Positions 19,174 through 26,632 of a stretch of DNA of 64,000 bases are shown one piece after another. Each line of letters starts with the position of its first letter. The first letter of the stretch is position 1. The notes under the pieces are model-generated. The model ran no database searches, had not been told where the DNA came from, and was given only the letters and a program-made list of their open reading frames with translations. Source of the stretch: Thermocrinis albus DSM 14484 (GTDB lineage Bacteria > Aquificota > Aquificia > Aquificales > Aquificaceae); assembly GCF_000025605.1 (NCBI RefSeq), contig NC_013894.1, positions 543,529 to 607,528 of the forward strand. Direction: 5' to 3'. Made by a program: the position numbers and the translations under genes.

Positions 19174-19763
19174 CAGTAACGTTCCTCCTTCCATGGATCT
19201 CCCCTCATGTGGTACCCTCTCTGTTCCCAAAAACCGGGTGTGTCTTCTTGGAGTATCTCTATACCCCACACATACTTGGCGCTCTTCCAGGCATAGAGAG
19301 ACGGGATAACCAGGCGCAGCGGAAAACCATGTCTCTTAGGGAGTGGCTTACCTCCCAATTTGTAAGCTAAGATGCTGTCCTCCATAAGCAGATATTCTAC
19401 CGGTACGTTGGTGGTGTATCCCTCAAGACAGTGTATAAGGGCGTATCTACCCTCAGGTTTAAGCTTTGCCATGCTAAGGATGAGGGCTGTCGGAACACCT
19501 TCCCACAGAAGATCTTTCACACTCCACCTTGTGACACAGTGAAAATCAGCCAAAAGCTCTACAGATGGTAGCCGGAGGATATCTTCATAGCTTAGTTCTA
19601 TTGGTTCCTCCACAAGACCCCAGACTTTCAAACGGTAGGAGGACATATCCCAGTCTGGAACTTCATCCACTATGTCGTAGGGAATAAGAGAAGAAATCCA
19701 CCTTTGACCGGGTGGTAGTCGGTCCTCTCTTTCCCTACAAGGACTTACGATCCTCCTCTTCAT
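19170..19763 (-). CDS. Sulfite oxidase-like molybdopterin-binding protein
   Basis: 197 residues of the oxidoreductase molybdopterin-binding fold (COG2041, related to MsrP/YedY and sulfite oxidase). Cys76 in DFHCVTRWS is the expected molybdenum ligand; the family pattern LIHCLEGYTTNVPVEYL and GFPLRLVIPSLYAWKSAKYVWGIE (in two parts) follows. There is no Tat or Sec signal and no haem or dimerisation domain, so it is probably cytosolic and small. Substrate unknown. It is divergent from rsmA with 21 bases between the start codons. Confidence 0.83.
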   Translation of the reverse strand: MKRRIVSPCREREDRLPPGQRWISSLIPYDIVDEVPDWDMSSYRLKVWGLVEEPIELSYEDILRLPSVELLADFHCVTRWSVKDLLWEGVPTALILSMAKLKPEGRYALIHCLEGYTTNVPVEYLLMEDSILAYKLGGKPLPKRHGFPLRLVIPSLYAWKSAKYVWGIEILQEDTPGFWEQRGYHMRGDPWKEERYW

Positions 19764-19784
19764 GGTTCTATTAAATTTAAGGGA

Positions 19785-21626: not shown

Positions 21627-23125
21627 TACTTTTGGTGGCCACTTTTTTAGTGTTGAGTCTCACCGCCTTTGCTGACTGGAAGGACGATCTTAGGGCTTTC
21701 TTTCAGAGAAGTGGTTATGTGGTAGGTGTGAGAAACAACGAGGTTCTTTTGGACATGGGTAAACAGTCGGTGAGAGAAGGGGAGGAGCTTAAGGTTTTGA
21801 GGGAAGGAGGAGAGATAAAGCACCCGGTAACAGGTCAGGTTTTGGGAAGGGAGGAGACGGTTGTAGCCGTAGTGAGGGTGGTGTCCGTCAAGGAAAACTA
21901 CTCGGTGGCCAAAGTGGAAAAGGGTAGAGACATAAAGGTGGGAGACAGGGTAAAGGTAGACGCACAAGCCGTGTGTTACGAAGGATCGGAGGAAGGTTTC
22001 TTTAAGGTGAGCGGTGTACTGGAAAATGTAAAAAGAGGGAAAGACTGTCGCTACGTCATCAAAGAGTTTCCAAATGGTTTCGGTGTCGAACTGGAGGGTA
22101 GACCTATAGCCTTCTTCCAGTCCCAAGGTACCCAGATCCTCCAACCTCGGGCCACTATTCAAGATATAAACATCCTTGTTAGAAGTAAGTACGTGAAACA
22201 GCTACCGGGTATACCTATCTCTGCCGATACTGGAGATCTATACGGTAACGGCAAAGACAACTTGGTGGTTTTGTATCAGGGGCGTCTAGAGGTTTACGAA
22301 ATGGCAAAGAACGACCTTATTAGGAGATCTTCCTTCTCTCTTCCTGCAGGTACAGCGGTGAGTATTTATGTGGCTCCTCTCGGAAAGGAAAAGACAGCTT
22401 ATGTAATAGTGAACATGATATCGGGAGGGAAAGCCAGTTCCCTCATCCTTAAGGCGGTGGGAGACAGTCTCATACCTGTGGTGAAGGACATCCCTTACCT
22501 GATGGCTGTCTTAGACAAAAACAGACCGACGGAGACTTTTGTAGGACAGAGCTTTAGCTCTGATGAGATGTGGGGTAAGGTGGTGAAACTATCCTTGGAA
22601 GGTGGCGTTCTGAAGGAAGCGGGGAACTTTCCTGCTCCTAGAGGTTTTAGGATAGATGGCGCCTTTTATTACGGACATTACCTTTTGTTCACCGACAGCT
22701 CCGGTAGGGTAAGGGTCTTTGACGGTGACAACGAGGTTTTCTCTACAGAGGACATAGCGGGGGGTTCTTACAGCTATGTGGAGCTCAACATAGGTGAGTC
22801 TAAACTCAACTTCCTCTTCTATCCTAGGGGTGTTGTTGCTAAGGTGTTAGACTTCAATGTAGCCCTTGTGCCTCGCAACGTGAGGAGTGAGGTGTTCAAG
22901 TTCTTAGATGTGGTTAAGTTCTCGCGAGGTGAGCTCTTCCTCCTGGGAGAAAAGGGTAAGGACCTGATAGTGATGAAGAGTCTAAGGGGCGGAAACTGGG
23001 AGGAGGCCATACAGGCGGTGGTTACCACAAGGGACGGAAGAGTTTTTGTGCTCACCGGACGTACGGGAACCATACCTGTCCAGAACAGAGGAGATGTGTA
23101 CGAACTGGAGTTTAGACTCCTTTAG
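21623..23125 (+). CDS. Secreted protein of unknown function, FlgT-C-like domain
   Basis: 500 residues from the ATG that overlaps leuB by 4 bases. A signal peptide ends near AFA-DW. Residues about 35-110 ([11 protein letters not shown]..., [25 protein letters not shown]) resemble the small beta domain at the C-terminus of FlgT, which surrounds the flagellar basal body. The remaining ~350 residues are beta-rich, including [18 protein letters not shown], which looks like an FG-GAP/propeller blade. It is likely periplasmic or outer-membrane associated. The FlgT link is inference; no flagellar genes are nearby. Confidence 0.65.
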
Positions 23126-24065
23126 CCTGTAGTAGAACCCAGAAGCGATCACCCATACTGATAAGCATAGTCTTAAGGCGTGAGAGTCTCTCTATATCTT
23201 CCGGCTTCTCTGACATACTCAATCCGGTAAGCTCATCTACAAAGCTCTGTGACTCTAAAAGAAAGTGGCGCTGTTTCTTTAAAAAGACTGTCCTCAACCC
23301 GTACTCCTCTCCCCACTCCACAAGAGCGGAGAAGTTCACCATGGCGGACAGATCCATAAGATCTTCACTGAAGATGTCGTAATACACCCTTCCCTCTTTG
23401 TAACCCACCACAGTGCCTTCCGGGTACCTGTGTAGGTCTTGGGAAGTGTAGCCGTAATCTATCGTGAGGATGTAACCCCTCTTCATAGAGTCCGCTATCC
23501 TCTTAAGGAGATCAATGCATTCAAGACACACCTCCACCACCGTTTTGATGTTCTCATAACCCATACGTCTCAGAAACTGCTTTACTCTCTCATCACAGGG
23601 AAGCCACACTTTCTCCTTATCCTTCAGGTAGAGTTCTTTTCCTTCCTTCACCACATGTACGGGAAGGCAGTCAAAGAACTCGTTGGATATCACAACAGCC
23701 TCTTCGGGTATCTCAAGCCTGTCTAACCACATCACCTTATCCCTGTACTCTTGGAGAACCTTACCCTGAAACTCCCTCAGGAGAGGACTTGTCTCGTATA
23801 TCCTGTAGGATAATCTCTCGTAAAGGGTCGGTTTCCTCTCCGCCACAAACTGAAGAATGTCCTTGGCCATCAGACCCCTTCCCGCGCCCAGCTCCACCAC
23901 GTTAGGAGTGGAGATACTTTCCAGAAGAGGTATTATTTTCTCCGCCAGAGCAAAACCAAAGATTCTATCCAGTTCAGGCGCTGTGAAAAAATCCCTCCCG
24001 ATACCTGCGCGTTCTCTGTAGTAGAGCTCCACCTTCTCCTTCATAAACTGATAGAAACTTTTCAT
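23112..24065 (-). CDS. MidA/NDUFAF7-family SAM-dependent methyltransferase
   Basis: 317 residues. The N-terminus (FYQFMKEKVELYY and RDFFTAPELDRIFGFALAE) is typical of the COG1565 family that includes mitochondrial NDUFAF7, which methylates an arginine of complex I. SAM site ELGAGRGLMAKDIL at about 58-71, then VISNEFFDCLPVHVV and ILTIDYGY. Bacterial members are unassigned; a role in respiratory complex I maturation is inferred by homology. It overlaps the HIT gene by 4 bases. Confidence 0.87.
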   Translation of the reverse strand: MKSFYQFMKEKVELYYRERAGIGRDFFTAPELDRIFGFALAEKIIPLLESISTPNVVELGAGRGLMAKDILQFVAERKPTLYERLSYRIYETSPLLREFQGKVLQEYRDKVMWLDRLEIPEEAVVISNEFFDCLPVHVVKEGKELYLKDKEKVWLPCDERVKQFLRRMGYENIKTVVEVCLECIDLLKRIADSMKRGYILTIDYGYTSQDLHRYPEGTVVGYKEGRVYYDIFSEDLMDLSAMVNFSALVEWGEEYGLRTVFLKKQRHFLLESQSFVDELTGLSMSEKPEDIERLSRLKTMLISMGDRFWVLLQAKGV

Positions 24066-24409
24066 CCTGGGGGCCAGTTCATAGATCTCCCCCCTATGAG
24101 ATGCAGGTGTAGATGGAAAACGGTTTGTCCCGCATCCTTACCTACGTTGAACACCAACCGGTACCCTCCCGACAGCCCCTCTTGTTCTGCTATCTTCTTA
24201 GCCACGTAAAACATATGTCCCACCAAACACTCGTCCTCCTGCTGGAGCTCTTGTACACCCAGTATGTGCTTCTTGGGAATTATGAGAATATGGGTGGGGG
24301 CCACGGGGTTTATGTCCCTGAAGGCGTATACAAGCTCGTCCTCGTATACTCCCGTAGAGGGCAGCTCTCTCCTCAAAATTTTACAGAAGATACAATCTTT
24401 CACCTGCAT
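24062..24409 (-). CDS. HIT family nucleotide-binding hydrolase
   Basis: 115 residues from an ATG at the position where similarity begins (MQVKDCIFCKILRRELP); the open frame upstream of it overlaps the divergent gene and is rejected. HIT motif HLHLHLIGG with His99, His101 and His103, plus Cys6 and Cys9 for a zinc site. The HINT/Hit branch cleaves nucleoside phosphoramidates and related AMP-linked substrates. TATAAT lies 6 bases before the start and no ribosome binding site is present. Confidence 0.92.
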   Translation of the reverse strand: MQVKDCIFCKILRRELPSTGVYEDELVYAFRDINPVAPTHILIIPKKHILGVQELQQEDECLVGHMFYVAKKIAEQEGLSGGYRLVFNVGKDAGQTVFHLHLHLIGGRSMNWPPG

Positions 24410-24414
24410 AACAT

Positions 24415-24421
24415 TATTATA
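24415..24421. promoter_or_regulatory. Overlapping divergent -10 boxes (HIT / phosphatase-like gene)
   Basis: Only 18 bases separate the two start codons. Minus strand: TATAAT at 24416-24421, 6 bases before the HIT ATG. Plus strand: TATTAT at 24415-24420, 7 bases before the ATG of the phosphatase-like gene. Both transcripts would start at or within a base or two of the initiation codon. Confidence 0.5.
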
Positions 24422-24427
24422 TTCTGC

Positions 24428-24829
24428 ATGAAGTTGGCCTTCGTTTCCACAAAAGGTGTTGTCAGAGGTGCTATGGCTAAAGCTATAACCAGTAAAATGG
24501 CACGTCTTGCTCTTCTTTCTATGGACATATACCTGGCCGGAACAGAACCTGCGGAAGAAGTTCCTCCCAAGGTTCTGCAAGTACTCAAAGAGAAGGAGTA
24601 TCCGACGGAGAACCTTGTCCCCATACCTATCTCTCAACTTCCCTACGATGATCTGGATATACTCATCACCCTATCACCGGAAGCCAGGGATAGGTGTCCT
24701 TACAGCCCTGCCCACAAGAGGAGGGAACATTGGGTGATAGAGGAGGCCAGCCCGGAAGATGTTACAGAACTGAGAAAACTGAGAGATAAGTTAGAAACCG
24801 CCGTGAAGGAGTTGTTGAAGATAAAATAA
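24428..24829 (+). CDS. Low-molecular-weight phosphatase/ArsC-like protein lacking the catalytic Cys
   Basis: 133 residues. The N-terminal FVSTKGVVRGAMAKAI aligns with the P-loop of low-molecular-weight tyrosine phosphatases and thioredoxin-type arsenate reductases (normally C-x5-R-S-x-M-A). Ser7 stands where the nucleophilic Cys should be; Arg13 and the MA pair are kept. Later ILITLSPEARDRCP and HWVIEEASPED resemble the family's VITVCD and W-x-x-x-DP segments, but the catalytic Asp-Pro is also missing. It may bind a phosphate or oxyanion ligand without catalysis. The frame upstream of this ATG is antisense to HIT and is rejected. Confidence 0.75.
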   Translation: MKLAFVSTKGVVRGAMAKAITSKMARLALLSMDIYLAGTEPAEEVPPKVLQVLKEKEYPTENLVPIPISQLPYDDLDILITLSPEARDRCPYSPAHKRREHWVIEEASPEDVTELRKLRDKLETAVKELLKIK

Positions 24830-24877: not shown

Positions 24878-25807
24878 ATGATAGATATCACCAAGCTAAA
24901 GACCTTTGTAGCTGTAGCGGATTTGGGTAGTTTCTCCAAGGCATCCGAGATACTCTACATAACCCAGCCGGCAGTGACCCAGCAGATAAAGGCGTTGGAA
25001 AAAATGGTAGGTGCCAAGCTCTTCCAGAGACAGGGTGGAAGGATAGTGTTGACAGAAGAAGGAAAAAGGATATACGAACTGGCAAAAGCGCTACTGAGCG
25101 ATTACGAAAACCTCATGGAGGAAATGGCCAACATAAAGAAGGAGTTTAAAGAATCCCTTTTCATCGGAATAAGCACCACCCTAAGCGAGTATAAAGTTCC
25201 CGAACTTATAGCAGAGTTTCACTCCCAGATGCCCAGTATAACCATAAGAGTTTTTGTGGAAAACTCTCAGCAGATAGAGGAGGGACTGTCCTCCGGTGTG
25301 CTGAACTTAGGAATAATAGAGAGGGAACCCTCCGAGAAGTTTAACTCCATAAGGTGGTTTGTGGACGAAGTGGTTTTCTTCACTCACCCACAACATCCCT
25401 TCGCCCGTATGGGAAGCATAGAACCTGAGATGCTCTACGAAGCTGACATCATATTCCGTGAGTCCAGTTCAGGAACGCGCCGGGTGGTAAAACAAGCTCT
25501 GGAGAGGTTGGGGATAGTTTTTGAACGCCTTAACATAAAGATAGAGGTGAACTGTGGCAGATCAATACTGAGTATGGTGAAGAGTGGTTACGGCTGTAGT
25601 TTCTTATCGAGGGGTCTTCTGGAGAAAGATCTGGAAGAGGGTAGCATAGTGGAGGTGCCCATAAAGGGGTTCAAGGCAGAGCGCTGGTACTACATAATAT
25701 ACCCTCAAGGTGGAAAACTATCCTTTTTAGCTAACCGTTTTATGAGATTTCTCCTTTCCAAGGAAAAACAGGAGTTGGTGAAAGATGAGGAAAGGATTGA
25801 TCTTTGA
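24878..25807 (+). CDS. LysR-family transcriptional regulator
   Basis: 309 residues. Winged helix-turn-helix at the N-terminus (LKTFVAVADLGSFSKASEIL, then TQPAVTQQIKALEKMVGAKLFQR) and a two-lobed effector domain (about 90-295; SLFIGISTTLSEYKVP, FRESSSGTRRVV, GYGCSFLSRG). The SSSGTR motif resembles CysB/CysL/CbbR-type regulators. TATATA lies 7 bases before the ATG. The end overlaps the HAD gene by 23 bases. Target genes are unknown; self-regulation is likely but not shown. Confidence 0.93.
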   Translation: MIDITKLKTFVAVADLGSFSKASEILYITQPAVTQQIKALEKMVGAKLFQRQGGRIVLTEEGKRIYELAKALLSDYENLMEEMANIKKEFKESLFIGISTTLSEYKVPELIAEFHSQMPSITIRVFVENSQQIEEGLSSGVLNLGIIEREPSEKFNSIRWFVDEVVFFTHPQHPFARMGSIEPEMLYEADIIFRESSSGTRRVVKQALERLGIVFERLNIKIEVNCGRSILSMVKSGYGCSFLSRGLLEKDLEEGSIVEVPIKGFKAERWYYIIYPQGGKLSFLANRFMRFLLSKEKQELVKDEERIDL

Positions 25808-26453: not shown

Positions 26454-26595
26454 GGAGAACCGGTATGTCATCCTCCACGGGATAGTAAACACCACACCTT
26501 TCACACACAAGTATGCTCTTGTCCCTGATGTATATGAGGTCTCCCTTGCATCTTGGACACGCCAATATGTTTAACAGTTCTTCCGGCAGAGCCAT
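26398..26595 (-). CDS. Trm112/YcaR-like zinc-ribbon protein
   Basis: 65 residues with the Trm112 pattern: LLNILACPRCKGDLIY, then LVCERCGVYYPVEDDIPVLL. Cys13/16 and Cys31/34 form the zinc ribbon. In eukaryotes and archaea Trm112 activates methyltransferases; bacterial forms have less certain roles. A TATAAT lies 7 bases before the ATG and no ribosome binding site is visible. The 3' end overlaps the convergent HAD gene. Confidence 0.87.
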   Translation of the reverse strand: MALPEELLNILACPRCKGDLIYIRDKSILVCERCGVYYPVEDDIPVLLIEEAKPLSELPPAQQEF

Positions 26596-26602
26596 CTCTG
26601 TT

Positions 26603-26608
26603 ATTATA
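26603..26608 (-). promoter_or_regulatory. -10 box of the Trm112-like gene
   Basis: TATAAT on the minus strand, 7 bases before the ATG; no ribosome binding site. It shares a 37-base intergenic region with the rhodanese promoter. Confidence 0.5.
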
Positions 26609-26619
26609 AAAAATTGCTA

Positions 26620-26625
26620 TATAAT
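26620..26625 (+). promoter_or_regulatory. -10 box of the rhodanese gene
   Basis: TATAAT on the plus strand, 7 bases before the rhodanese ATG. No ribosome binding site is seen, so the transcript is probably leaderless. Confidence 0.5.
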
Positions 26626-26632
26626 TAATAGT

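Follow-up and report, generated by a model that had tools for sequence, protein, structure and literature searches.

The 18 bases between the divergent HIT and phosphatase-like genes of Thermocrinis albus appear to form a bidirectional core promoter of the sigma-A type with a single shared -10 element, from which both mRNAs would start leaderless or nearly so (probability about 0.8). This reading draws on the anatomy of the spacer, the start codons, the lack of -35 and Shine-Dalgarno (SD) motifs and the recurrence of the arrangement in the family, which together point to how polymerase would use the site, where the transcripts would start, mutual exclusion between the two directions and leaderless translation. 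It is proposed that RNA polymerase would bind the TATTATA core (24415-24421) in either orientation, one at a time, and would initiate in each orientation on, or 1-2 bases from, the A of the adjacent ATG, with neither a 5′ leader nor an SD site being required. Most likely, two known phenomena are combined here in a lineage-typical way, giving an Aquificaceae-type bidirectional promoter with two leaderless transcripts. The features of the locus are as follows (positions are those of the window, i.e., the whole 64-kb stretch analysed).

23112..24065, minus strand: SAM-dependent methyltransferase (PF02636); its ATG overlaps the HIT stop codon.
24062..24409, minus strand: HIT (histidine triad, HinT-like) protein, 115 aa, start MQVKDCIFCKI; Pfam PF01230, 7e-30; start backed by homologues.
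24410..24427, no strand: spacer AACATTATTATATTCTGC, filling the whole intergenic region; candidate bidirectional core promoter; from the sequence and whole-genome pattern searches.
24421-24416, minus strand: putative HIT -10 box TATAAT, 6/6; first T at -12; 6 bases from box end to ATG.
24415-24420, plus strand: putative -10 box of the phosphatase-like gene, TATTAT, 5/6; first T at -13; 7 bases from box end to ATG.
24415-24421, no strand: putative shared pseudo-symmetrical -10 core TATTATA (TANNNTA); from the sequence, the register of PMC10268837 and register enrichment.
24428..24829, plus strand: low-molecular-weight phosphatase/ArsC-like protein, 133 aa, Ser replacing the catalytic Cys; Pfam PF01451, 3e-15; ortholog alignment and ArsC structures.
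24878..25807, plus strand: LysR-family regulator; conserved, next to the phosphatase-like gene on its downstream side.

Two opposed -10 boxes share five bases

The original prediction described a divergent pair with an 18-base gap and two opposed -10 boxes sharing five bases, and both coordinates and sequence proved exact. The spacer AACATTATTATATTCTGC is flanked by CAT (24407-24409) and ATG (24428-24430); it reads GCAGAA-TATAAT-AATGTT-ATG on the minus strand and AACAT-TATTAT-ATTCTGC-ATG on the plus strand. The five common bases are 24416-24420, and the -11A and -7T of the plus box (24416 and 24420) pair exactly with the -7T and -11A of the minus box. In Escherichia coli and Salmonella, the transcription start sites (TSSs) of bidirectional promoters are most often 18 bp apart, the spacing at which -7T and -11A of the two strands fall on the same base pairs (PMC10268837, PMC12825309). 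The five-base overlap, being this reciprocal -7/-11 register with a -10 hexamer on each strand, is thus what is expected of a bidirectional, shared -10 promoter; that it is the signature of a pseudo-symmetrical bidirectional element had gone unrecognized in the original prediction.

With only 6-7 bases between the end of each box and the ATG it serves, leaderless or nearly leaderless mRNAs are expected in both directions. From the box positions, the HIT mRNA is predicted to start at A24409 (minus strand), and the phosphatase-like mRNA at A24428 (plus strand) or 1-2 bases upstream. The predicted TSS distance is therefore 18-19, and 19 if both starts fall exactly on the A of the ATG, against the reported optimum of 18. 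The ATG-to-ATG distance is 19 because the plus box lies one base further from its start than the minus box, and the distance from -10 to TSS may vary slightly (PMC12825309). At -18 from the predicted starts there is a G on the minus strand (24427) and an A on the plus strand (24410). A T at this position is a frequent feature of bidirectional promoters, although not an obligatory one.

The spacer is AT-rich, and in a compact genome such a gap could yield -10-like hexamers by chance, so that two independent promoters would overlap by coincidence. A plus-strand box of at least 5/6 indeed arose in 8% of shuffles of the spacer's own bases. However, both boxes jointly at -15 to -12, with a perfect match for one and at least 5/6 for the other, were obtained in only 0.5% of these shuffles, and in 0.05% of random 18-mers of about genome composition. 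With the recurrence described below, this makes a coincidental overlap very improbable.

Start codons of the two genes

The plus frame is open upstream to 24113, and a simple gene caller once picked an internal start for HIT; if one start codon were wrong, the real gap would be longer. The N-termini of homologues, however, match both annotated starts. HIT orthologues in the Aquificaceae have the same conserved N-terminus (...DCIFCKI or ...ECIFCKI), most of them without an alternative in-frame start, and all 30 phosphatase-like orthologues open at the same M(K/R)(L/I/V). A wrong start, which was named beforehand as grounds for rejecting the divergent pair, is extremely unlikely, and the shared-core promoter is considered below with both starts as annotated.

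The stop codon of HIT and the ATG of the methyltransferase gene overlap on the minus strand (ATGA at 24062-24065). This suggests translational coupling in a HIT/methyltransferase operon, and because of the overlap the methyltransferase gene is presumed to be cotranscribed with HIT from the same promoter. On the plus side, the catalytic P-loop cysteine (CX5R) is absent from all 30 aligned Aquificaceae phosphatase/ArsC-like proteins, being replaced by Ser in 26 and by Gly in four (L021, L023, L025 and L028), whereas the arginine of the motif is retained. The alignment suggests that this neighbour of a LysR regulator is a conserved pseudo-enzyme.

A leaderless -10 signal in the Aquificaceae

The T. 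albus genome consists of one contig of 1,500,577 bases, of which 424 kb were sampled as spaced stretches. In this sample, TANNWT hexamers occurred 55 times at -15 to -12 before leading genes, where 13 were expected from upstream positions, and an SD was present in only 26% of the genes that carried them. A similar excess, 12-15 bases before start codons, was found in seven Aquificaceae relatives, and the family-wide peak lies at -15 to -13. No -10 peak before starts was seen in six sister-family genomes from the same order, where 40-53% of genes have an SD. The Aquificaceae peak agrees with the leaderless signals of the TAtaaT type published for Aquifex, which lie around -12 and were assigned to 20.7-32.4% of genes in Aquificae (PMC3160421). 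Both the HIT and the phosphatase-like genes carry this signal: with the first T of a leaderless -10 about 12 bases before the start codon, the minus box (-12) lies at the edge of the family peak and the plus box (-13) within it.

If each ATG lies 12-15 bases from its -10, simple arithmetic places two leaderless genes on one core 17-23 bases apart. The 18-base gap is near the floor of this range. The view that it is one of the smallest divergent promoters imaginable was overstated, since gaps of 17 and 19 occur in the 424 kb of the same genome and gaps of 15-18 in relatives.

No -35 hexamer and no Shine-Dalgarno site

The -35 contacts of each promoter had been placed inside the coding region of the partner gene. 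The position does fall there geometrically, but no hexamer matches: with spacers of 14-20 from each -10, the best TTGACA-like match was 3/6 on the plus strand and 2/6 on the minus strand, and at the canonical spacers of 16-18 it was at most 2/6 on both. Nor did 69 other promoters of the leaderless type in Aquificaceae show a TTGACA peak at 16-18 bases, and 38 promoters from compact divergent pairs gave at most a trace of a -35 (two matches at 16 bases and two at 17). A -35 encoded in the partner gene was dropped on account of the poor matches at the locus and the lack of a peak among the 69 family promoters. Since neither this promoter nor similar ones in the sampled relatives have a match, there is no need to postulate one within the coding sequence of the partner; sigma region 4 may contact partner-gene DNA there without sequence preference. 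A regional sigma-70 scan found no promoter, because it demands a -35.

Likewise, no GGAGG-like stretch is present within the 18-base spacer, as expected of leaderless genes. That the spacer leaves no room for a ribosome binding site is wrong: there is space at about -12 to -5, yet none is present. The more economical reading, which the original prediction missed, is that the transcripts are probably leaderless and so need no room for a leader or a ribosome binding site.

These data also bear on whether the spacer drives one direction only, the other gene being served by a promoter with a normal leader inside the coding sequence of its partner. The minus box is a perfect TATAAT and the plus box only 5/6, and a TTTACA lies upstream on the plus strand (24380-24385), which speaks for such an arrangement. 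This hexamer is 29 bases from the plus -10, however, which is too far, and the plus box at -13 occupies the position that the family prefers for leaderless genes. Moreover, an SD is absent on both sides, whereas leadered genes in this lineage usually have one; the HIT genes of other Thermocrinis-type genomes of the same genus, for example, are preceded by an AGGAGG-type site instead. The empty regional scan also speaks against a second promoter, to the extent that its requirement for a -35 allows. We consider use in a single direction unlikely, and prefer a shared core that would be read both ways.

Recurrence of the shared core

In ten Aquificaceae, the TANNNTA core was found in register in 8 of the 21 divergent pairs with gaps of 15-24, where shuffling predicted 0.6. 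Without the HIT/phosphatase pair the count is 7/20, so that the symmetrical core is enriched in the divergent pairs of relatives, in a test that could have gone against the shared core.

Whole-genome searches were then made with a pattern that needs no gene caller, CAT-N5-8-TATWATA-N5-8-ATG, with controls. It gave 10 sites in the T. albus genome (control 0), 40 against 0 in the ten Aquificaceae and, in eight genomes of the sister family, 19 against 31. All ten T. albus sites are flanked by divergent ORFs, none shorter than 86 codons, which argues against a coincidental overlap; several of the proteins, judged by eye from their N-termini, resemble familiar ones, e.g., CoaE-, EngB-, FabZ- and acylphosphatase-like. 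Frames of at least 80 codons both ways were present at 24 of the 29 Aquificaceae pattern sites inspected, against 1 of 14 sister-family sites. The spacer is in some cases conserved between species and genera, e.g., GGGTATATAATATAAACCAT and AAGTATATAATATAAACCAC (G016 and G029). Five genomes of other phyla had 0-1 sites, and an AT-rich Thermoanaerobacterium genome had 16 against 4, part of them being one site in several near-identical copies.

Divergent gaps of 16-31 made up 30/147 in the Aquificaceae and 3/43 in the sister family with a home-made gene caller, which prefers upstream ATGs and hence somewhat shortens gaps. This difference in gap length is suggestive; the pattern test, being independent of gene calling, is the stronger.

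Relation to known systems

The spacer resembles the shared -10 bidirectional promoters of Warman, Grainger and colleagues (PMC10268837, PMC12825309) in the five-base overlap, the reciprocal -7T/-11A, the TSSs ∼18 bp apart and the dispensability of a -35. Unlike the E. coli and Salmonella cases, the starts predicted in T. albus lie on or beside the start codons, and the promoter would fill the whole intergenic region. With the leaderless TANNNT genes of PMC3160421, a set of genomes that includes Aquifex aeolicus, it shares the hexamer and its position ∼12 bases before the start codon, but divergent or bidirectional arrangements are not mentioned in that study. In Mycobacterium tuberculosis, prpD and Rv1129c are likewise divergent neighbours, both mapped as leaderless, and closely juxtaposed divergent promoters are described as common (PMC3898074). 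The EcoRV restriction-modification system also has divergent promoters with overlapping polymerase binding sites, but there the overlap serves C-protein regulation, and the C transcript is not leaderless (PMC5333194). Head-to-head transcripts were reported without explanation in the dRNA-seq of A. aeolicus (PMC4227106). In the literature searched, whose coverage is incomplete, we found no description of a doubly leaderless shared-core promoter.

The union of a bidirectional promoter with leaderless genes may be the most compact way to set two genes back to back. A wider generalization, that in the Aquificaceae the shared -10 core is a standard unit joining two leaderless genes, with gaps of 17-23 set by promoter geometry, any gene being placeable opposite a leaderless promoter and polymerase competition coupling the expression of the two, is plausible but somewhat less than an even bet. 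As promoter, transcript start and start codon would nearly coincide, any mutation displacing the -10 box would be expected to alter translation as well. The conserved sites collected here, about ten in the T. albus genome with the strictest core, offer a way to test how competition for polymerase and the translation of leaderless mRNAs affect gene order in small genomes of thermophiles.

Changing partners and other compact pairs

The HIT/phosphatase pairing was found only in T. albus and in none of the relatives examined. In closer relatives the LysR gene usually stays next to the phosphatase-like gene, whereas the divergent neighbour of the latter, 16-24 bases away, changes: in the same genus it is an Ffh-like gene (gap 24), in six genomes of another genus an LpxB-like gene (gap exactly 16), both named by eye from the N-terminus, and in a third genus a 102-codon frame (gap 17-18). 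Because the divergent partner differs between relatives, the compact arrangement arises repeatedly and with varying partners.

The 16-base LpxB-like/phosphatase-like gaps (L019, L020, L021, L024, L027 and L028) have a conserved ATTATT/AATATT core. Such a gap falls one base below the minimum of 17 for the standard register, and its two -10 boxes must therefore overlap in another way. In a 17-base divergent gap of the T. albus genome (L041:11949-11966, GTTTAATATCTTACCAC), the TANNNT boxes share only two bases, in a different register. The home-made gene caller gave further compact divergent pairs in the window at 19763-19784 (gap 21) and 26595-26632 (gap 37); the first and last of them were dropped by a stricter gene caller.
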